From assembly GCF_024300825.1 (NCBI RefSeq), contig NZ_CP101323.1, forward strand, positions 3,038,001-3,102,000: a stretch of DNA of 64,000 bases. Reading direction: 5' to 3'. A model generated the notes under the pieces. The model did no database searches. It was not told the origin of the DNA and worked only from the letters and a program-made list of their open reading frames with translations. This DNA comes from Natronomonas gomsonensis. Lineage in GTDB: Archaea; Halobacteriota; Halobacteria; Halobacteriales; Haloarculaceae. Below, in pieces: positions 23,378 to 43,060 of this stretch. The stretch's first letter is position 1. Each line of letters begins with the position of its first letter. The position numbers were made by a program, and so were the translations under genes.

Positions 23378-23911
23378 ATGTCCGACCGCGCCGCCGCTCC
23401 CGTCGTCGGAGTCGTCCTCCTGGTCGCGGTGACCGTCCTCGCGGCGACGGCCGTCGGGACGGCCCTCCCCTCGGAACTCTCCGACCCCGCTCGCACGGCC
23501 GCCTTCGACGTGGCGGCCGACGACACCGGTCGAGTGACCGTCACCCATCTCGGTGGTGACGCCGTCGACCCCGCCGAACTTCGAATCCGAATCCTCGTCG
23601 ACGGCGAACGGCTTTCCGAACAGCCGCCGGTCCCCTTCTTTTCGGCGCGGGGGTTCGAAAGCGGGCCGACGGGACCGTTCAACAGCGCCACGCACGGCCC
23701 GTGGCGTGCCGGCCAATCCGCGAGTCTCCGCGTGGCAGGGACGAATTCACCGACGTTGCGTGTCGGTGCGACCGTGGAGGTGCGCCTCTACACCGACGGG
23801 ACGCAAATCGCCGTCCAGACGGCGACCGTTCAGGCGGCTTCGACTGGGTCGCTGTCGACGGTCGTCTCCTCTTCGGTTTCGGGGGCGTCCTCGTCGTCGT
23901 CAGGCACGTAG
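23378..23911 (+). CDS. Type IV pilin-like protein
   Basis: A 177-residue protein with the archaeal type III signal peptide and pilin helix: 'RAAAPVVGVVLLVAVTVLAATAVG' right after a five-residue positive leader, where PibD-type prepilin peptidase would cut just before the hydrophobic helix. The remainder is a beta-rich head ending in a Ser-rich tail. Such pilins build adhesion pili in haloarchaea. The last 82 nt overlap the convergent methyltransferase gene on the other strand; the overlapping C-terminal tails of both proteins are low-complexity. Confidence 0.85.
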   Translation: MSDRAAAPVVGVVLLVAVTVLAATAVGTALPSELSDPARTAAFDVAADDTGRVTVTHLGGDAVDPAELRIRILVDGERLSEQPPVPFFSARGFESGPTGPFNSATHGPWRAGQSASLRVAGTNSPTLRVGATVEVRLYTDGTQIAVQTATVQAASTGSLSTVVSSSVSGASSSSSGT

Positions 23912-32883: not shown

Positions 32884-33411
32884 ATGTCGGATAGCCGCCT
32901 CCAGCGGGTGCCGGATGACGCCTCGACGGTTCTCGTTCGGTCACCCTCCATAGAGGGGGTCACGTCCGCCTGCACCGGCCTGTCGGGGCGGTCCGAGCGC
33001 GTTCTGCTCGTCGGGTATGCGGGTTCGAACGTCGAGGGGCTTCGAACGCGGTTGGCTGAACGTGACGCCGACCCGCCGCCGGTCCGGGAACTCGATGTCG
33101 GAACTGACGTCGAACCGGGCGATTTGACGGGGTTGGGAATCGCCATCGCCGAATCGTTGGGGCCGGACACTGCGGTGTGTTTCGACTCGCTGACGGCGAT
33201 GTTGCAGTACGCCGACCGCGAGCGGTCGTTTCAGTTCCTTCACGCCCTCGGCGAGCGGTGTGCGTCCGCGGGCGCGACGGCGCATTACCATCTCGACCCC
33301 GAGGCGACCGACGAGACGACCGTGGCGGCGCTGTCGACGCTCGTGGACGCGGTCGTCGACACCGGGGCGGGAACGGTCTCGGTTCGGCCCGAACTAACTG
33401 AAAAAGATTAA
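32884..33411 (+). CDS. RecA/KaiC-like hypothetical protein inside the atp operon (DUF7504-like)
   Basis: A 175-residue protein between atpB and atpD. The sequence '[18 protein letters not shown]', '[10 protein letters not shown]', '[13 protein letters not shown]' and '[31 protein letters not shown]' has the strand-helix alternation and Walker-B-like 'VCFDSLT' of haloarchaeal RecA/KaiC-like proteins, but no P-loop lysine is visible, so ATP hydrolysis is unlikely. The position inside the ATP synthase operon may be just co-transcription or a link to energy state. Gaps on both sides are under 50 nt. Confidence 0.65.
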
Positions 33412-33440
33412 CCCGGTCGGGACACAAGCCCTCGACAAGA

Positions 33441-34130
33441 ATGGCCAAGGACGTCAAACCGACGCGGAAGAACCTCATGGCTATCGAGGACCGCATCGAA
33501 CTCTCCGAGCGGGGCCACGACACCCTCGAGAAGAAGCGAGACGGCCTCATCATGGAGTTCATGGACATCCTCGACCAGGCACAGGACGTCCGGTCGGACC
33601 TCGACGACAACTACGAGCGCGCCCAGCGGAACATCAACATGGCGCGGGCGATGGAGGGCGACGTGGCGGTTCGCGGCGCCGCCGCGGCGCTGAAGGAACA
33701 CCCCGAAATCACTTCTCAGTCGAAGAACATCATGGGCGTCGTCGTCCCGCAAATCGAGTCGACGAAAGTGAAAAAGAGCCTCGACCAGCGTGGCTACGGA
33801 CTCGTCGGTACGTCGGCGCGTATCGACGAGGCTGCCGACGCCTACGAGGAACTGCTGGAGACGATTATCCTCGCCGCCGAGGTCGAGACGGCGATGAAGA
33901 AGATGCTCGACGAAATCGAGAAGACCAAGCGTCGTGTCAACGCCCTCGAGTTCAAACTCCTCCCGGAACTGCACGGCGCCCAGGAGTACATCGAGCAGAA
34001 ACTCGAAGAGCAGGAGCGCGAGGAAATCTTCCGGATGAAGAAAATCAAGGCGAAAAAGGAAGAGAGCGAAGCCGAAGAGGCCGCCGAAGCGGCTGAAGCC
34101 GAGACCGAACCGGTCACCGCAGACGACTGA
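33441..34130 (+). CDS. atpD: A-type ATP synthase subunit D
   Basis: Central rotor axle of the A1 part, 229 residues. Family features are '[37 protein letters not shown]' at the N-terminus and the long antiparallel coiled coil near both ends, with '[40 protein letters not shown]' at about 155-195. The C-terminus is an acidic Ala/Glu tail. It is the last gene of the ATP synthase operon. Confidence 0.95.
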
Positions 34131-34299
34131 CGCAGTTGCTTTCGTCTCTGTTTTCAGCGTGGTAGCCACGCCGACGGTCGGCGGCAGATTCATTGACCCC
34201 CTCTTCGAAGCCCGTTTCAGATGACACGTTCGAGGCTCGCGACGGACGCCCCACGAGTGACGAACCAGGCGGGAACGACCGGGGGGCTCGGCGGTATCG

Positions 34300-35715
34300 A
34301 TGACTGAACGGGAACCGATTTCGGGCGCGGACAACGCCTGGCGGCGCATCGGGTCGGTGACCAACCTGACGACGATAACTGGCGTGTTGTGGTTCGACGA
34401 CGCCATCACCTACGAGGAACTGTGTGACCGCCTCGAGGAGCGACTGCTTCGTTTCGACCGGTTCACCCAACGTATCGCCGGCACCGACCGCCCGATGCGG
34501 CGGCCCTACTGGGAAACACTCGAGGACTTCGACATCGAGACGCACATCACTCACGTCGCGCTCCCGGAGCCACAGGACAAGGCGGCGTTTCAGCGCTTCG
34601 TCAGTGGACTGATGAGCCATCCTCTCGAGGAGTCTCGACCGCTGTGGGAGGCGTATCTCATCGACGGGGCCGGTGGCGATGACGGCAACGCCGTCGCGTT
34701 CCGAATCAATCACAGCATCGGCGACGGGTTCGCGCTGATGTACGTGCTGTTCGGGCTGGTCGACGACCCTGATTCGGTCGAGATGCCGATGGGTATCATG
34801 CCCGACCCGCCGAGTGCGGACGCTTTCTCCGAGGAATCCGACGACGCAGTCCCGAACGACTCGACAGGGGACGCGTCTGCTGGGTCGAAAGAACGGGGAG
34901 AGAAGGAAGGCGACGAGGACGGTTCGGGGCTCTCACTCGGTCCCGACGGCCCTCTCCAGGCGGCCCAACTCGCGGGGAAAGCCGTCAAGACTGGGTGGAA
35001 CCTCCTGACACAGGACGACGAGGCTGAGACGTCACTTCGCGGTGACATCGGGACGGCCAAGCGGGCGGGATGGACCGAGGAAATCGACCTCGAAACGGTC
35101 CGTGCCATCGGCCGGGCCAACGACGCGACCATCAACGACGTGCTGTTGGCCGCACTCGCCGGGGCGTTCCGACGACTCTTGCAGGAACGCGGTGAGGGGG
35201 TCGACGGGCTCGAACTCCGGACGACGGTGCCGGTCAACCTCAAGCCGTTGGACGAGCGGGACGCCTCGCTGGGGAACTACTTCGGACTCGCCTTCGTTCC
35301 GATTCCGGTCGGCACCGCGGACTTGAACGAGCGGATTCGCATCATCCACGAGCGAATGGACGCCCAGAAGGCGGGTCTGGAGGCGCTCATGATGTACCTG
35401 ACGCTGTCTCTCGGCGGGCACTCGCCGGACCCCGTGTTGGACTGGCTGATGAAGCAGTTTGAAAACCGCGCGACGGGCGTGGTGACGAACGTCCCCGGAC
35501 CGGTCGACACCGTCGAGTTCGCCGGCAAGGAAGTGACTGACGTGATGTTCTGGGTCCCACAGGCCAACGACCAGGGCATCGGTATCAGTATCTTCAGCTA
35601 CGATGGCGGCGTCCGCGTCGGCATCGCGGCCGACGAGAACCTCCTCCCGGAGCCGTCGAAACTCGGGGACGCTTTCGAGCGGGAAATCGAGTCGCTCGTC
35701 GCCGATATCGAGTAA
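34300..35715 (+). CDS. Wax ester synthase/diacylglycerol acyltransferase (WS/DGAT)-like protein
   Basis: A 471-residue member of the WS/DGAT O-acyltransferase family. The N-terminal condensation-like domain has the catalytic HxxxDG as 'HSIGDG' (His138, Asp142); after an acidic Ser/Gly-rich insert (about 170-225) come 'ATINDVLLAALAGAFRR', 'RTTVPVNLK' and 'LGNYFGLAFVPIPV', and the DUF1298 C-terminus has 'TGVVTNVPGPV'. In bacteria these enzymes make wax esters or triacylglycerol from acyl-CoA; the substrate in an archaeon with ether lipids is uncertain. An upstream 28-codon frame (34221-34307) overlaps the ATG and may couple translation. Confidence 0.82.
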   Translation: MTEREPISGADNAWRRIGSVTNLTTITGVLWFDDAITYEELCDRLEERLLRFDRFTQRIAGTDRPMRRPYWETLEDFDIETHITHVALPEPQDKAAFQRFVSGLMSHPLEESRPLWEAYLIDGAGGDDGNAVAFRINHSIGDGFALMYVLFGLVDDPDSVEMPMGIMPDPPSADAFSEESDDAVPNDSTGDASAGSKERGEKEGDEDGSGLSLGPDGPLQAAQLAGKAVKTGWNLLTQDDEAETSLRGDIGTAKRAGWTEEIDLETVRAIGRANDATINDVLLAALAGAFRRLLQERGEGVDGLELRTTVPVNLKPLDERDASLGNYFGLAFVPIPVGTADLNERIRIIHERMDAQKAGLEALMMYLTLSLGGHSPDPVLDWLMKQFENRATGVVTNVPGPVDTVEFAGKEVTDVMFWVPQANDQGIGISIFSYDGGVRVGIAADENLLPEPSKLGDAFEREIESLVADIE

Positions 35716-35753
35716 ACCGGCACACACTACTGTGCTTTTCCCCTACGTCGGGT

Positions 35754-36143
35754 ATGGAGTGTCCTGCATGCCGAGCGCGGATGGTGACGTTTCCCGTCCC
35801 GTTGGAGTATCGCGAACACGTTCCGGAGTCTTCGGACTGTGCGGCGCTGTGTCCCGAGTGTCTGACGCTCGTGGCGGCAAACAGCGCCAGTGACGACCCG
35901 CGGTTCGACCGCATCTCCAGTGCCTTTCCCGACAACGAGGCGGCGGTTCCACTGGCGCTGGCGGTCGGATTGCTCGACTCGCTTGCGCTCCACCGGACGG
36001 CGCTACAGGAGTTGCTTCCCGCGGTCGAAGCCGCAGGCGTCGACCCGCTTCTCGTTCTCGACCGACTGGACGCACAGGGCGGCGTCCAACCGGAGTTCGA
36101 CCTCAGCAGGCGCCGGCATCAACTCCAGCAACTGCTGGATTGA
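35754..36143 (+). CDS. Haloarchaeal DUF6276-like zinc protein
   Basis: A 129-residue protein beginning 'MECPACRARM' (Cys3, Cys6) with a second pair 'CPECLTL' at about residues 33-36, likely one zinc ribbon, followed by an all-helical part with 'NEAAVPLALAVGLLDSLALHR' and 'GVDPLLVLDRLDAQG'. The layout matches what I recall as DUF6276. Its function is unknown. It follows the WS/DGAT-like gene by 38 nt in the same direction. Confidence 0.7.
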   Translation: MECPACRARMVTFPVPLEYREHVPESSDCAALCPECLTLVAANSASDDPRFDRISSAFPDNEAAVPLALAVGLLDSLALHRTALQELLPAVEAAGVDPLLVLDRLDAQGGVQPEFDLSRRRHQLQQLLD

Positions 36144-36320
36144 GGAAAATAGTTAAATATTTGTTTTCGCCTCCTGGGAGGGTACGTCACGCGATGACGT
36201 AATGAACTCGAACGGCTAATCTTCGATGGGGTGGGGTGCACCCTCTCTTCGGGGTGGGGGGAATCCACCGACGCGCGAGCGGCCACGGGGGAAGATTCCG
36301 CGTCGGTCGAATGTGGGGTC
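36144..36320 (+). other. Structured convergent gap, possible small RNA
   Basis: This 177-nt gap between two convergent genes holds a TATA-like 'gttaaatattt' (36152-36162) and then several inverted repeats: TACGTCA/TGACGTA with 5-nt loop (36183-36201), the self-complementary GGGTGCACCC (36235-36244), and CCGACGCG/CGCGTCGG spanning 36268-36306. Either it is a two-way terminator region or it encodes a small non-coding RNA starting near 36178. No known RNA family was recognised. Confidence 0.35.
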
Positions 36321-37562
36321 TTAGACGCCCGTCGAATAGCGGAGAATGCCGGCGATACCACCGAACGCCGTGAGCAGTTGTTCGCCTTTCTCGAAGTCGG
36401 TGGAGATGAACTTCGCATCCGACCCGCGCTGTTCGGCGAGGTCCATCAGGTGGTCGATGACGTCCTCACGCTCTTGGACCTCGCCCTCGGTTCCGTCCTC
36501 GCAGGTGTGACTCGGCGTCCCCGCTTTTCGGTCGACGACCTCGAACTCCTCGCGGCCGCCACATTCGTAGACGACCACGTCCTTCCGGAGGTCCTCGCTG
36601 ATGAGCAGTCGGTCGACCGCTCCCATCATGAGGTTCTGTCGGGTGGCCTCGAAGCCGTAGGTGGCCTTCTGGCCGTCGTGGAGTTGCTCGAAGAACTCCT
36701 CCATCTCGGATTTGTCCTTCATCACCTCGGTTTCGGCCAGCACGTCCTGGGCGGCGTCGACGAGGTCGTACAGCCCGGATTCGTCGGTGTAGGAGACGTC
36801 GAACTTCCCCAACACACTGTCCTGCAGTTCGTGGTGCAGGTAGTCGCCGTCGAGGAACTCGTCTTTCGTCGGCGAGGGGCCACCGACTAGGATGCCGTCC
36901 ATCTCGTGGCGCTTGGGAACGAAGAGGTCGTCGGCCATGCCGGCGACTTCCTGATAGAAGTTGTCGATGGCTTCCAGTCGCAGGCGGGCGAATCGCTGGG
37001 CGGACTGGCCACCTTTTCGCTGCTTCCCCGGCACCAGCGAGGAGGCTGACTTGACGGGTTCGACGCGTTTGCCTTTCAGCCACCCGACGTTTGCCTCCCG
37101 TCGGTCCAGGACGATGAGGCCGTACAGGCCCTTGTCGCCGAGCATCTCCGCAAGCGGTTCGGTGAGGAAGTGTGAGTCACAGTGATACCGGAACGACTCG
37201 ATGGGGTCCGGCGGCGATTCGAGCACCTCGGTGACCATATCCGTTTGGCCGCCCCCGGCGTCGACGGCTCCCGAAAAGATGACCATCCCGTTTTCCGGTG
37301 GATGGACATCGTAGTACTTCAGGCGGTCCTTGATGCTGGTGAGAGCGTCCTGTACGGCGGTTCGGGTCTGTTTGGACTTGATGTTGGACGCTTCGCTGTG
37401 CTCTTGGGTGACGTGGGCGACCACGTCGCTAATTAGCCTGTCTTCGGGGATGTAGATGGAGACGAGTTGGGTTCCGGAACCCGAGTAGTCGTCGAGTTCC
37501 TCGATTACCTTCTGAAACTCGTATTTCTGTTTGTCCGAGGGGTCCCCCTCGCTTTCGCTCAT
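36321..37562 (-). CDS. prf1: Peptide chain release factor aRF1
   Basis: Class 1 release factor that recognises all three stop codons, 413 residues. The codon-recognition loop 'NIKSKQTRTAV' (NIKS) is at about residues 58-68, the GGQ motif that triggers peptide release is 'RKGGQSAQRFARLR' at about 183-196, and the C-terminal domain carries zinc-like 'CGGREEF' and 'HTCEDG' segments. ATG 37562 starts the family N-terminus; the longer in-frame extension upstream is in non-coding DNA. Confidence 0.95.
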   Translation of the reverse strand: MSESEGDPSDKQKYEFQKVIEELDDYSGSGTQLVSIYIPEDRLISDVVAHVTQEHSEASNIKSKQTRTAVQDALTSIKDRLKYYDVHPPENGMVIFSGAVDAGGGQTDMVTEVLESPPDPIESFRYHCDSHFLTEPLAEMLGDKGLYGLIVLDRREANVGWLKGKRVEPVKSASSLVPGKQRKGGQSAQRFARLRLEAIDNFYQEVAGMADDLFVPKRHEMDGILVGGPSPTKDEFLDGDYLHHELQDSVLGKFDVSYTDESGLYDLVDAAQDVLAETEVMKDKSEMEEFFEQLHDGQKATYGFEATRQNLMMGAVDRLLISEDLRKDVVVYECGGREEFEVVDRKAGTPSHTCEDGTEGEVQEREDVIDHLMDLAEQRGSDAKFISTDFEKGEQLLTAFGGIAGILRYSTGV

Positions 37563-37652
37563 TGTGGTTGGTTTGCGCCCCCGGAAATAAAACTCCGTCC
37601 TTTGTGAGAGCAGAGAGTAAGGCCTATCAGGCCACTCCGCACACATCCCGCT

Positions 37653-37787
37653 ATGTCACAGAGCGAGGAGAGTTCGGTTCGACTGTCATGGATTGCTATC
37701 TTCCTGCTGCTCGCGCTCGGCCTCGGGGCGGCCGCCGTCCTCGCCGTCGGGGGCAGCATCCTGCCGACGGTCGCGCCGCTGGTCTGA
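37653..37787 (+). CDS. Small single-helix membrane protein (44 aa)
   Basis: ATG 37653 to TGA 37787 encodes 44 residues: a polar start 'MSQSEESSVR', one hydrophobic helix 'WIAIFLLLALGLGAAAVLAVGG' and a short tail. GC-rich codons with strong third-position GC and the neat membrane layout support a real gene. The function is unknown. It is divergent from prf1, with its start about 90 nt from the prf1 start. Confidence 0.55.
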   Translation: MSQSEESSVRLSWIAIFLLLALGLGAAAVLAVGGSILPTVAPLV

Positions 37788-37845
37788 GGAGACATCTGCC
37801 GTACTGATTGCGGAGTGCGGTATACTCACAATACTGTCGTAGCAT

Positions 37846-38022
37846 ACGGCGCACGAAGCGCGCCGTTTTGGTCCGAGAGAGCAGAGCTCTCTCGTCATCA
37901 CGAAAGACCGCGCTGTGCGCGGTCTTTCGAACGACACCGCCGACGAGCGCCTGCGGCGCGAGTCGGCGGCCTTTTTCATCGAACGTTTTGCGCCTCGGGG
38001 TCGCCGAAGCGCAAAACGTTCG
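37846..38022. repeat. Array of five consecutive stem-loops
   Basis: Five inverted repeats lie one after another in the gap between the small membrane protein gene and argS: (1) ACGGCGC/GCGCCGT 37846-37866; (2) CGAGAGAGC/GCTCTCTCG 37874-37894, loop AGA; (3) CGAAAGACCGCGC/GCGCGGTCTTTCG 37901-37929, 13 bp, loop TGT; (4) CCGCCGAC/GTCGGCGG with an inner GCGCC/GGCGC stem 37937-37969; (5) CGAACGTTTTGCGC/GCGCAAAACGTTCG 37980-38022, 14 bp. Stems differ in sequence, so this is not a simple tandem repeat. Possible roles are multi-hairpin terminator, structured RNA, or a nest of palindromic elements. Confidence 0.85.
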
Positions 38023-38024
38023 GG

Positions 38025-39767
38025 TTACATCGATTCGGGCGCTTCCACACCCAAGATATCGAGCGCGTTGGCGACGGCGTGTTTCGAGGCGGCGACGAGC
38101 GCGAGTCGTGCGGCACGAGTCTCGTCGTCGTCGGCGGTGAGGACGGGACACTCCCGATAGAAGGCGTTGAACCGGTCGGCGAGTTCGCGGGTGTACGTGG
38201 CGACTTGATGGGGTTCGAGGTCCGAGGCCGCCGCGTCGACGACGCCGGGGAACCGCGCGAGCGAGCGGATGAGGTCGCGTTCGGCACCGGTGGTGAGATA
38301 CGACGTGTCGGCGACTGCTTCGAGTTGGTCGGCCTCATCGAGAATGCCACAACAGCGCGCGTGAACGTACTGGACGTAGGGCGCCGACTGGGCTTCGAAG
38401 TCCAGGGCGCGCTCCCACTCGAAGGTGATGCCCTTCGTCGGCTGTTTCGAGACGATGTCGTAGCGGACGGCGCCGATACCGACCTGCCGAGCGATGCGTT
38501 CGACGTCGGCTTCGTCGAGGTCGTCGTCGCGGAGGCGTTCGTCCATGCGGTCTTCGACCTCCTCGCGTGCGCGGTCGATGGCTTCGTCCAGCAGGTCGTC
38601 CAGTTGGACGCCCGTGCCGCGACGGGTCGACATCTTGCCCTCGGGAAGGTTGACGTAGGAGTAGATGACGTTCTTCAGTCGGTCGGTGTCGTTGCCGAGA
38701 AGTGACAGCGTCGTCGAGAGCTGTTCGGCCTGCAGTTTGTGGTCCTCGCCCAACACGGTGACTGCGCGGTCGTAGTTGTCGAACTTCCACTCGTGGTGGG
38801 CCAAATCGCGGGTCGTGTACAGCGAGGTATCGTCGGCTCGGAGGAAGACGAGGTTCTTCTCGATGTCGTCGAAGGTGAGTTGCCAGGCGTCGTCCTCGTA
38901 GACGGCGCCGTCGAGTTCCTTTAGACGGGCGATGACGTCGTCGGTCGAGCCGTCGCGCATGAACTTGGTCTCCTTGACGAACTCGTCGAACTCCGCGGGG
39001 AGGCGGGCGAGACATTCCTTCATCCCGCCGAGGACGGTGTCGACGACCTCGCCGACCCGCTCGTAGGTCTCCTCGTCGCCGGCTTCCAGTCCCTGAAGGA
39101 TGGCCTCGATTTCGGCTTCGGCCTCCTCGACCTCTTCGGGGTCGGCCTCCTCGAGGAAGGCGTTGCCCTTCCGGTAGTAGCGAACCATCCGGTACTCCGC
39201 GCGGTCCCGTGCCGGTTCGGGGAGGTCCGACTCGTCGAAGCGTTCGTAGGCCCACGTGAAGACGGCCATCTGTCGGCCGGCGTCGTTGACGTAGTAGTGG
39301 CGGTCGACGTCGTAGCCGGCGTAATCGAGGGCGTTCGCGACGGCGTCGCCGATGATGGGGTTGCGCGCGCGCCCGACGTGGACGGGACCGGTCGGGTTCG
39401 CGGAGGTGTGTTCGACGACGATGGAGGTGTCGCGGTCGGGGAGTCGGCCGAAGGCGGCGTCCCCGCCGGCCTCCAGCGTGTCGGCGAAGTACGACTCGTC
39501 GGGCAGGAAGTTCAGATACGGCCCCTGAACGTCGACGCGGTCGAGGTAGTCGTAGTCGTCGGCGTCGATGGCGTCGGCGAGTTCGGCGGCCACCTTCGGC
39601 GGCGGTGCTTCGGCCTGTTCTGCCAGTCGGAAGGCGACGCTGGAGGCGAAGACCGCCTCGACGTCTTCCGGTGGCTCCTCGATACCGAGGTCGTCGGTTG
39701 GGTAGTCGTTGGCCGCAAGCGCCGTCTCCAGCGCCGTCGCGACCGACTCCCGGAACGCAAGGAACAT
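38025..39767 (-). CDS. argS: Arginyl-tRNA synthetase
   Basis: Class I aminoacyl-tRNA synthetase, 580 residues. It shows the N-terminal tRNA D-loop-binding Add-1 domain, the HIGH-type motif as '[23 protein letters not shown]' (about residues 119-140), '[17 protein letters not shown]', and the class-specific 'KMST' as '[21 protein letters not shown]', with a helical DALR anticodon-binding end. Its stop lies only 3 nt beyond the hairpin array, so the array would be in the 3' untranslated region. Confidence 0.96.
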
Positions 39768-39818
39768 ACCCGACGGTTGACGAGCGGCCGATAAAGGGGT
39801 TTCCGAACGGACCCGTGG

Positions 39819-40316
39819 TCAGGGTCGGACGTTCTCGACGAGGTCCCCGGATGCGAGTGCGTTCAGGCAGTCCTCGATGCTCTCGTGGGTACCGTCGTTC
39901 CACCGGGGGTAGAGTCCGGTCAACTCGCCCGCCTCGCGGAGGGCGACGGAAACCGGCGGGAACGTGACCACCCGGTCGACGCCGTCGGAACCGGGCCGCG
40001 TCTTGAAGAACGGGTCCAGCGACTCCCAGCCGACTGCCTCGACGAACTCGTCGTAGACGGCGGTGGGTGTGTCCCGGTCGGTTTCGTTCCCCGTTGGCTG
40101 CTTGGACACCGTCTCGACTCGGCGGTCGGTCACCACGCCTGCCTGCTCCAGCAGTTCGAACCCCTCGAGGGCACTCGAAACCCTGTCGGAGGCAGCGTCC
40201 GGAACGGTCTCGCGGACGTAGAGGGTCAACTCCGCCGACAGTGGCTCCCGGTCGGCTATCCTGATTATCATGGGCTCTCCGCCGGATTTTCCACCCATAT
40301 CGAGTCCTCTGAGCAT
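39819..40316 (-). CDS. Haloarchaeal HTH-like small protein, copy 1
   Basis: A 165-residue soluble protein, paralogue of the next minus-strand gene. Both start 'MLRGLD', share an internal Met in 'EPMII', 'DRV/ERF..a..gFd.LE.AgV' in the middle, 'YDEFVE.VG.....L.PFF' and end 'ELTGLYP' and 'EDCL.ALA.GD.VENV'. The overall layout resembles small haloarchaeal proteins with an annotated HTH domain near residues 40-70, but no clear DNA-recognition helix is visible, so the function is unknown. The start could be the internal Met (MIIRIADRE). Codon use is core-like. Confidence 0.65.
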   Translation of the reverse strand: MLRGLDMGGKSGGEPMIIRIADREPLSAELTLYVRETVPDAASDRVSSALEGFELLEQAGVVTDRRVETVSKQPTGNETDRDTPTAVYDEFVEAVGWESLDPFFKTRPGSDGVDRVVTFPPVSVALREAGELTGLYPRWNDGTHESIEDCLNALASGDLVENVRP

Positions 40317-40541
40317 ATCTCTACATCAGCCGACCAACGGAAAAACATTCTTCACCAAGAAGTAAAGAAATAGGTGGAAATAACGATTCAAACGTTTTCA
40401 AATACTGGTTAGAAGTTGTGGGTGGGCTCCACTCGATATTAGAAATAAACGTTCGGATTCGGAGGTGTGGATTGTGCGTCGGCGTGTACTGGAGCAATCG
40501 GAACGAACGAAAAGATACGTCGGGGCTCGAAACGGTGGGCT

Positions 40542-41039
40542 TCAGGCGACGTTCTCGACGCGGTCGCCCATCGCGAGGGCGGCCAGACAGTCCTCGACCG
40601 ACTGGGTTGTGCTGCCATCGCGCTTCGGGTAGAGGCCCGTCAGTTCTCCCTCGTCGCGAACCGTGATGCAGATATCGGGCATGGAGACGACGCGCTCGTG
40701 GTCGTCGTCACCGGTTTCGGCCTCGAAGAACGGTTCGAGGGCGTCGGTGCCGACCGACTCGACGAACTCGTCGTAGGTGGCGACGACCTCGTTTTCGGGG
40801 CCGTCGGTCGGCGCGTCGATTTCGGTGGGCCACGTCACGACGGTGACGCCGTCGATGACCTCGGCGGCCTCCAGTCGGTCGAAGCCGTCGCGGACGGCGC
40901 GGAACCGCTCGTGGCTCTCCGACGACAGGGATTCGGCGACGTAAATAGTCACATCGCCGTCGAACGCCTCGCGTCCGGCGGCTTTGATTATCATCGGTTC
41001 GTCGTTGCTTTCGCCCCACGTGTCGAGCCCTCTGAGCAT
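40542..41039 (-). CDS. Haloarchaeal HTH-like small protein, copy 2
   Basis: A 165-residue paralogue of the gene at 39819-40316, about 35-40 percent identical by eye, with the same length and same conserved ends ('MLRGLD' start, 'GELTGLYP' and 'VENVA' at the end). The central part 'VIDGVTVVTWPTEIDAP' differs from copy 1. The two genes are separated by 225 nt of less GC-rich DNA, so each may have its own promoter. A tandem duplication followed by divergence is the simplest explanation. Confidence 0.65.
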   Translation of the reverse strand: MLRGLDTWGESNDEPMIIKAAGREAFDGDVTIYVAESLSSESHERFRAVRDGFDRLEAAEVIDGVTVVTWPTEIDAPTDGPENEVVATYDEFVESVGTDALEPFFEAETGDDDHERVVSMPDICITVRDEGELTGLYPKRDGSTTQSVEDCLAALAMGDRVENVA

Positions 41040-41240
41040 GTCTATTCGTTCCCATCACCACTCAAAAGGGTTCTGTGGAAAGCATACAAATTGTATTAGG
41101 AGTTCGTGTGAACACTGACCAAAGAGCGGCTGCAGTGAACGAACGTATCACGACTCGAGGGAACGCGTGTCGAGTGTCACGCCATCTCTTGACACGCGAC
41201 GAACCACGGCCTTTAGGCCTTCGTCGCTGTATGGGCGGGT

Positions 41241-42212
41241 ATGCCCAAGCAGGTCAGCGACCCTGACTATCACTCGGAGAACCACACCGCCGCCCAGACC
41301 TGCGGGTGGACGGCAAACGCCTTGCGGGGAGAGGGCCGCTGTTACAAGAACCATTTCTACGGCATCCAGAGCCACCGCTGTATCCAGATGACGCCGGTCG
41401 TCAAGTGCAACGAGCGCTGTGTGTTCTGTTGGCGCGACCACGCCGGCCACGCCTACGAACTCGGCGACGTGGAGTGGGACGACCCCGAGGCGGTCGTCGA
41501 CGCCTCCATCGACCTCCAGCGGAAACTCCTCTCCGGCTTCGGCGGCAACGACGACGTACCCGAGAAAGTGTTCGAGGAGGCGATGGAACCGCGACACGTC
41601 GCCATCTCGCTGGACGGCGAACCGACGCTGTATCCCTACCTGCCGGAACTCATCGAAGCGTTCCACGACCGCGGTATCACGACGTTCCTCGTCTCCAACG
41701 GCACTCGCCCGGAGGTGCTCGCGGAGTGTGACCCCACACAGCTGTACGTCAGCGTCGACGCCCCTGACCGGAAGACCTTCGGCGAGGTCGTCAAGGCTGT
41801 CGAGGACGACGCGTGGGATAGCCTCATCGAGACGCTGGACGTACTCGCCGAAAAGGACGAAACCCGGACCGTCCTGCGGACGACGCTTCTGAACGGCTAC
41901 AACATGTCCCACCCCGAGTGGTACGCGGGGATGTTCGACCGTGCCGACGCCGACTTCGTCGAAATGAAGGCGTTCATGCACGTCGGCAACTCCCGGGACC
42001 GACTGGACCGCGATGTGATGCCCGACCACGAGGCCGTCGTCGCCTTCACCGAAGCGGTCGGCGAGTACATGCCCGACCATCCGGTCGTCCGCGACGTACC
42101 GGCCTCCCGAGTTGCCCTCCTCGCACGCGACGAGGACACGTGGGTGCCGGAACTGAAAGGCGGCTCGGACTTTTGGACCGAGGGGACCTACGCGAAAGGG
42201 ACCAGCGACTGA
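41241..42212 (+). CDS. twy1: tRNA 4-demethylwyosine synthase
   Basis: Radical-SAM enzyme that forms the tricyclic base of wyosine at position 37 of tRNA-Phe, using pyruvate. The 323-residue protein has the cluster motif 'CNERCVFC' at about residues 57-64, preceded by '[12 protein letters not shown]', '[20 protein letters not shown]' and '[12 protein letters not shown]'-type substrate segment ('[11 protein letters not shown]'). Short archaeal form without the flavodoxin domain of yeast TYW1. It is a single gene upstream of ribK. Confidence 0.94.
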
Positions 42213-42358
42213 CAGCAACTGCCACCGGCCTCGTCACGTATTTACGTCGCGGACTCCGAATTAACGCTGTAAACCGTTCTCGGCGTGCGTACCGTTCCAA
42301 TTCTGTTATGCATGCCATTTCCGTTACGGTTAAGGGGCAATACTCCCTACCGGGTGGT

Positions 42359-43060
42359 ATGTCACAGACGACCGAGCGCGTGGGACACGACGAGTTGGCG
42401 ACGCTGAAACTCGTCGCCCTCGACGGCGCGCTCGAGGGTCGGGCGACGGTGACCTGTGCGGCGCTCGCCGACCGTCTCGACGCATCTAACCAGACCGCCT
42501 CCCGGCGGCTCCAGCGACTCGAAGACGCCGAGTTCATCGAACGCAACATGACCGGTGACGGCCAGCGAATCGCCGTCACCGAAGTCGGCGAGCGGGCCCT
42601 CCAGCGGGAGTACGCCGACTACCGCCGACTGTTCGAGGGCGACGCCGACGTGGACCTCTCCGGCGTCGTCACGAGCGGGATGGGCGAGGGTCGCCACTAC
42701 ATCTCCCTGTCGGGGTACATGGAGCAGTTCCGCGACCGACTCGGCTACGAACCGTTCGCCGGCACGCTCAACGTCGAATTGGACGACGAGAGCGTCCGCG
42801 CTCGCGCCCGCATGGACGCTTTGGACCCAGTCGGCATCGACGGCTGGGAGGACGACGACCGAACCTACGGGCCGGCCTTCTGTTGGCCGGCGACCATCGA
42901 AACCGTCGACGGCACCCGCTACGAGGACGTTCACGTCATCGCCCCCGAGCGGACCCACCACGGCACCGACCAACTGGAACTCATCGCGCCCGACCGCCTC
43001 CGCGACGAACTGGGCCTGAACGACGACGACCACGTCACTATCCATGTCTCAGAGCAGTAA
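42359..43060 (+). CDS. ribK: CTP-dependent riboflavin kinase fused to winged helix (RbkR-type)
   Basis: A 233-residue protein with an N-terminal winged helix (about 15-85, '[28 protein letters not shown]') and a C-terminal archaeal riboflavin kinase ('[40 protein letters not shown]', 'PVGIDGW', 'CWPATIE', '[14 protein letters not shown]'). The kinase uses CTP to make FMN, and in archaea the fused form is known as a riboflavin-metabolism regulator (RbkR). ATG 42359 fits a TATA-like 'gttaagg' about 27 nt upstream (leaderless). The stop overlaps ribB by 17 nt, so it regulates and works in the same pathway as its neighbour. Confidence 0.9.

Follow-up and report, generated by a model that had tools for sequence, protein, structure and literature searches.

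We suggest that the gap beside argS is an end-of-gene terminator cassette, A-C-D, into which a non-autonomous mobile element, B, was inserted at the junction of modules A and C, and we consider this reading likely. The gap (37788-38024, 237 bp) lies between two convergent genes, a 44-aa ORF on the left and argS on the right (Table 1), and is a mosaic of two dispersed hairpin repeat families, A-C-D and B, one inserted in the other, and not a row of five elements of one kind. The initial annotation had located five stem-loops in the 3' region of argS; they are indeed downstream of argS but are not in the gene, since all belong to the convergent gap. Orthologous sequence of the 44-aa ORF is kept in sister species (L002, L006, L197), and the Pfam search returned no match for it.

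Table 1. Genes, modules and hairpins at the argS gap (positions in the window)
Feature	Position	Strand	Description
44-aa ORF	37653..37787	+	upstream + gene of the convergent pair; one hydrophobic segment
argS, arginyl-tRNA synthetase	38025..39767	-	Pfam DALR_1, tRNA-synt_1d, Arg_tRNA_synt_N
Module A	37841..37868	+	AGCATACGGCGC..GCGCCGTTT, contains hairpin 1
Element B	37869..37934	+	66 bp; hairpins 2 and 3, covariance model R1
Module C	37935..37977	+	CACCG, hairpin 4 and T5C tract (37972-37977)
Module D	37978..38024	+	hairpin 5
Hairpin 1	37846-37866		stem 7 bp, loop 7
Hairpin 2	37874-37894		stem 9 bp, loop 3
Hairpin 3	37901-37929		stem 13 bp, loop 3
Hairpin 4	37937-37969		15-nt arms, 87% paired; the '8+5' stem
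Hairpin 5	37980-38022		19-nt arms, 95% paired

Hairpins and modules of the gap

Hairpin inspection reproduced all five stem-loops with the stems and positions first reported, and the three stems described as beginning with CGA and ending with TCG are those of hairpins 2, 3 and 5. RNA folding of 37820-38040, a check the initial annotation had proposed, gave -120.1 kcal/mol on the + strand (z = -8.2) and -126.8 kcal/mol on the - strand (z = -9.7), and none of 200 shuffles equalled the native energy. Hairpins with perfect stems of at least 7 bp and short loops comprise 29 bp of the gap; 1000 dinucleotide shuffles averaged 1.2 bp and never exceeded 16 bp. The gap ranks first in hairpin density among the 180-nt stretches of the window, the whole 64-kb stretch of DNA analysed (99th percentile 15 bp), and perfect stems of at least 11 bp with loops of at most 8 nt occur in the window only here. 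The second rank in hairpin density belongs to 23641-23860, with 21 bp of short-loop stems per 180 nt. No tRNA genes were found near the gap, within 33000-43000, and Rfam detected nothing in it above the gathering threshold (best 24.4 bits versus 47), nor at 10 related loci.

Of 60 relatives searched by BLAST with the gap, 41 gave some match, mainly to query positions 82-148, which correspond to B and are dispersed over many genomes. The remaining matches are other loci, mostly of the same genus, with the order A, C, D, and reading of the matched loci detected the modules also singly and in different combinations. The idea of nested palindromic repeats spread through the genome was therefore correct, with two dispersed families, one within the other. 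The annotation had named absence from related strains, with no transcripts or further copies in the genome, as the outcome that would speak against it. This was not the outcome: sister species do have A, C and D, and numerous further genomic copies of B were found.

The A-C-D cassette and gene ends

A-C-D is a probable repeated end-of-gene cassette of Natronomonas genomes; the stretch was matched about 40 times over ten sister genomes. Module A, with the family form AGCATCCG, hairpin and CGGTT, recurs where A meets C at other loci and in other genera, and the A-C-D architecture was found with other sequences at four loci of other genera (L026, L030, L098, L253). The hairpin of module D is opened by CGAACGTTTTGCGC on both strands. 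The covariance model of D (R2, 15 aligned copies) has compensatory change in 12 of 19 pairs; it detected 21 loci in the own genome, including 37969-38025, and at the same threshold is largely restricted to the genus. In about half of the own-genome copies, the right edge of D falls -7 to +10 nt from an opposing stop codon, and in several further ones it falls 35-49 nt before a start codon; at argS, the TAA (38025-38027) adjoins the module. In another Natronomonas (G002), the argS gap (L196) has another twin-hairpin variant where D and C meet, and an additional hairpin pair within hairpin D.

T-tracts of the cassette are present on both strands. The + strand has TTTTTC, in the 3' intergenic region after hairpin C, and four T in hairpin D, and the sole T-tract of the argS strand is four T inside D, just past the stop codon. 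The paired signature T5C..GTTTT was detected 15 times in the own genome versus 3 times for its reversed form as control. In Haloferax, T5C has been tested as a terminator motif and gave 95% termination, and hairpins were found there upstream of 503 mapped termini (PMC7237163). The terminator scan detected no bacterial-type terminator. The Haloferax results make it reasonable to predict that A-C-D terminates the convergent transcripts of the 44-aa gene and argS. The multi-hairpin termination site of the initial annotation is thus plausible for A-C-D, with its T5C tract and the position of D at stop codons, as a prediction from sequence. The transcript of the 44-aa gene would stop, on the + strand, at the T5C tract after hairpin C and the T4 in hairpin D. 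For argS, on the - strand, the T4 and hairpin of D, just past the stop codon, may end or protect the transcript. Termination on both strands would keep the convergent genes from transcribing into each other, and A-C-D copies are testable candidates for bidirectional archaeal terminators.

Element B and its insertion sites

B has the consensus TGGTTCGARAG-hairpin-CTYTCGTCATCACGARAG-hairpin-CTYTCGAACGA (about 58-68 bp), and its two hairpins are joined by the near-invariant linker TCATCA. The feet and linker (TGGTTCGA / TCGTCATCACGA / TCGAACGA) are nearly invariant, the stem interiors vary, and the ends are inverted only in part (TGGTTCGAGAG / CTTTCGAACGA). In 24 aligned copies, 97.6% of the pair cells were paired and 11 of 19 pairs were changed on both sides, with covariation of 0.26, above every control (0.076 shuffled, at most 0.08 slid). 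Template switching can keep the stems of palindromes perfect without selection on the fold, so the covariation supports a real hairpin unit and is by itself no proof of function. Other adjacent-hairpin pairs with recurring linkers, for instance GGCTGCCCGT, TGAGCCAATC, GCTGACCATGCGAAC and CGCAGCCCATCA, were observed at six loci and are possibly sister families of B.

In the own genome, the B model gave matches at about nine places; the weakest of these are degenerate, and several were matched on both strands because B is nearly symmetrical. In the phylum sample, B was found in 33 of the 33 Halobacteriales genomes drawn and no match was found in the other Halobacteriota genomes, the match table being read as kinship-sorted among the genomes without a match. 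Match counts per genome are lower bounds that include both-strand double matches, and reach at least 26 in each of three genomes of the sample. The exact B pattern was detected in at least 120 stretches over 84,980 GTDB genomes, haloarchaeal in all matches listed, and B is present on 33 haloarchaeal plasmids. Viral or phage carriage was rejected, with 0 matches to the exact pattern in IMG/VR and 0 in the phages searched.

Nearly all exact copies (132 of 134) are intergenic, and the gaps holding B are long (median 560 bp versus 108). Relative to tandem neighbour genes, 29 copies have the same strand and 32 the opposite one. Convergent gaps are somewhat enriched for B (22 of 100 classed versus 49 of 415 background gaps) and divergent gaps are depleted (17 of 100 versus 128 of 415), with gap classes based on gene calls of a simple codon-usage script; this skew is as expected for insertions tolerated away from promoters. 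Two B copies (L077, L189) were observed in short tRNA-3'-end-like sequence beside apparent tRNA genes, and another, on a Salinirubellus plasmid (L297:2500-2570), is within a hairpin at the tnpB 3' end, overlapping the annotated gene end.

The insertion of B is precise and without target duplication. In the argS gap of the sister species G001, modules A and C meet directly (+ strand, GCCGTTT followed by CACCG); in G000 they are separated by exactly 66 bp, TGG...CGA. The argS gaps of G015 and G018 are also without B. At a second site (L032, G000:C1:1516739), G000 carries a 63-bp B between CGCCTCG and CTTCGCTCGG, the right flank beginning with CTTCG, and in G001 CGCCTCG is followed directly by CTTCGCTCGG. 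The two empty sites agree in the B ends and in the absence of a target duplication. The insertion consensus, CG^CNNCG, was obtained from 129 distinct copies (left flank C 0.73, G 0.94; right flank C 1.00, fourth base C 0.81, fifth base G 0.85). In other haloarchaea, B is often inserted in one large host element, GAAAGGGGC...GGGGCTTTC, whose length without an insert is about 90-110 nt, with the target point GGAGCG^CAGCGAG; empty forms occur.

A conserved structured element of about 90-110 nt, GAAAGGGGC-stem-..GACGTAAGCACCGCAG..GGAGCGCAGCGAG..-stem-GGGGCTTTC, was observed at six loci (L055, L107, L143, L154, L159, L188). It is common in haloarchaea, is host to B and other hairpin pairs, and has no Rfam match. 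Several copies had suggested that B favours apical hairpin loops, but this idea was dropped because complementarity was no higher in the real B flanks than in re-paired ones (mean 3.6 versus 3.8).

According to the proposed mechanism, B would have jumped in this lineage to the point where A and C meet (GTTT^CACCG), with precise ends and no duplication of the target. A transposase or recombinase acting in trans probably reads the constant feet and linker of B, and the stems would be free to change provided that pairing persists. Our search for an enzyme moving B found no candidate.

Alternative readings and related systems

Copying of whole A-B-C-D arrays among terminator regions by ectopic gene conversion, with B not freshly transposed here, is rather unlikely. 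In another species, G016, a D-C-B-A array at a different locus (L003) is 94% identical to the window over 72 nt, which indicates that arrays may be copied whole, so a gain of B by gene conversion is possible at the argS site, and A-B-C arrays recur (L005, L164, L184); however, at the other empty site, L032/L285, a 63-bp B was cleanly inserted in a place that is no A/C junction, and B is present in many unrelated contexts. We consider it very unlikely that the hairpins are one structured regulatory or non-coding RNA across the gap, kept for its fold, as had also been proposed initially. B has no consistent orientation to neighbour genes (29/32) and no Rfam match reaches the gathering score, so a single structured RNA is not supported; the orthologous gap of the sister species is without B, and the modules are separable and found in other combinations. 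Random orientation, separable modules and the Rfam result removed this option as the main reading, even with the strong folding of both strands and the compensatory changes of B and D in its favour.

Two further explanations address the origin of B. A 'terminal-only' IS605 derivative (PATE), in which the left and right end hairpins of an IS605-type transposon are fused, would account for the two hairpins as the two transposon ends, and Haloquadratum has 52-bp terminal-only PATEs without target duplication (PMC3119063). We regard this origin as improbable: the feet and linker of B were not enriched over the window background at the 16 tnpA loci of six genomes that were sampled. No pair of half-B elements convincingly flanks a gene, the half-element cases being two short-range ones (L169 and L187), and one 'transposase' match (H25) proved to be a complete B at the 3' end of a tnpB gene. 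Mobilization of B as a REP/REPIN by a Y1 TnpA (RAYT) in the bacterial style is quite improbable and was rejected as the source of B, since PF01797 (Y1_Tnp) is absent from four B-rich genomes, about 99% complete, with at least 26 (G137), 19 (G125), 15 (G226) and 15 (G038) matches, both-strand double matches included. Only true IS200 TnpA (subclass 1.1) has been reported in archaea (PMC6006769). The two palindromes forming one dispersed, intergenic, multicopy unit and the missing target duplication at the two empty sites are features that B shares with the RAYT-driven repeats.

Beyond the preferred reading of an A-C-D cassette interrupted by B, we tentatively propose that haloarchaea may carry an order-wide class of miniature twin-hairpin mobile DNA (B and sister families with other fixed linkers), a possibility to which we give somewhat less than even weight. 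Their movement would need no complete terminal inverted repeats, no target duplication and no Y1 transposase, and the machinery would read the constant feet and linker that flank freely varying stems. Repetitive extragenic palindromes that have a partner transposase are a bacterial story, and archaea were reported to be without the partner enzyme; order-wide haloarchaeal twin hairpins with precise insertion and no duplication raise the question of what moves them. The empty sites and the insertion consensus are material for finding the mover of B, and the family would explain much unannotated haloarchaeal intergenic DNA. No description of B or A-C-D was found in the open-access literature searched, and the B family appears undescribed there, with the Haloquadratum SMRs compared by description.

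Like the haloarchaeal T-stretch terminators, which at times have an upstream hairpin, A-C-D has T5C downstream of the gene; unlike them, its T-tracts are part of a hairpin cassette that is dispersed, covaries and can be read on both strands (PMC7237163). The repeats of the gap resemble bacterial REP/BIME/REPIN with TnpA_REP (RAYT), which are short paired palindromes between genes, often in mosaics, with hypothesised roles in termination and mRNA stabilisation (PMC3116915, PMC2817692, PMC3733652). B shares with REP/REPIN the dispersed, multicopy, intergenic palindromes, but is archaeal, consists of two different hairpins with a fixed linker and hypervariable stems, has the feet TGGTTCGA and TCGAACGA and not GTAG/CGTC (CGTC being only at the hairpin 2/linker junction), and is found in some genomes that are missing the Y1 transposase (PF01797). 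MITEs have terminal inverted repeats and a target site duplication, whereas the ends of B are partly inverted and two sites have no duplication. The PATEs and terminal-only IS605 derivatives share with B the palindromes near both ends and the absence of target duplication, and can be about 52 bp (PMC3119063), but the B feet were not found at the IS605 ends sampled (16 tnpA loci). The SMR-A and SMR-B of Haloquadratum walsbyi (80-110 bp, transposase-free, with an enigmatic mode of movement) are, like B, haloarchaeal, without target duplication and inserted in other repeats; unlike the SMRs, compared here by description, B is 60-66 bp, order-wide and built of two hairpins (PMC3119063). SMR-A inserts in the near-terminal palindromes of IS605/PATE; one B is in the hairpin at a tnpB 3' end (L297), but the flank comparison showed no general preference of B for hairpin loops. 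Taken together, B belongs in kind among the miniature non-autonomous mobile repeats, and the best reading of the gap is a REP/BIME-like mosaic in which B resembles the Haloquadratum SMRs and the bacterial REPINs and stands outside the REP/REPIN-RAYT system.
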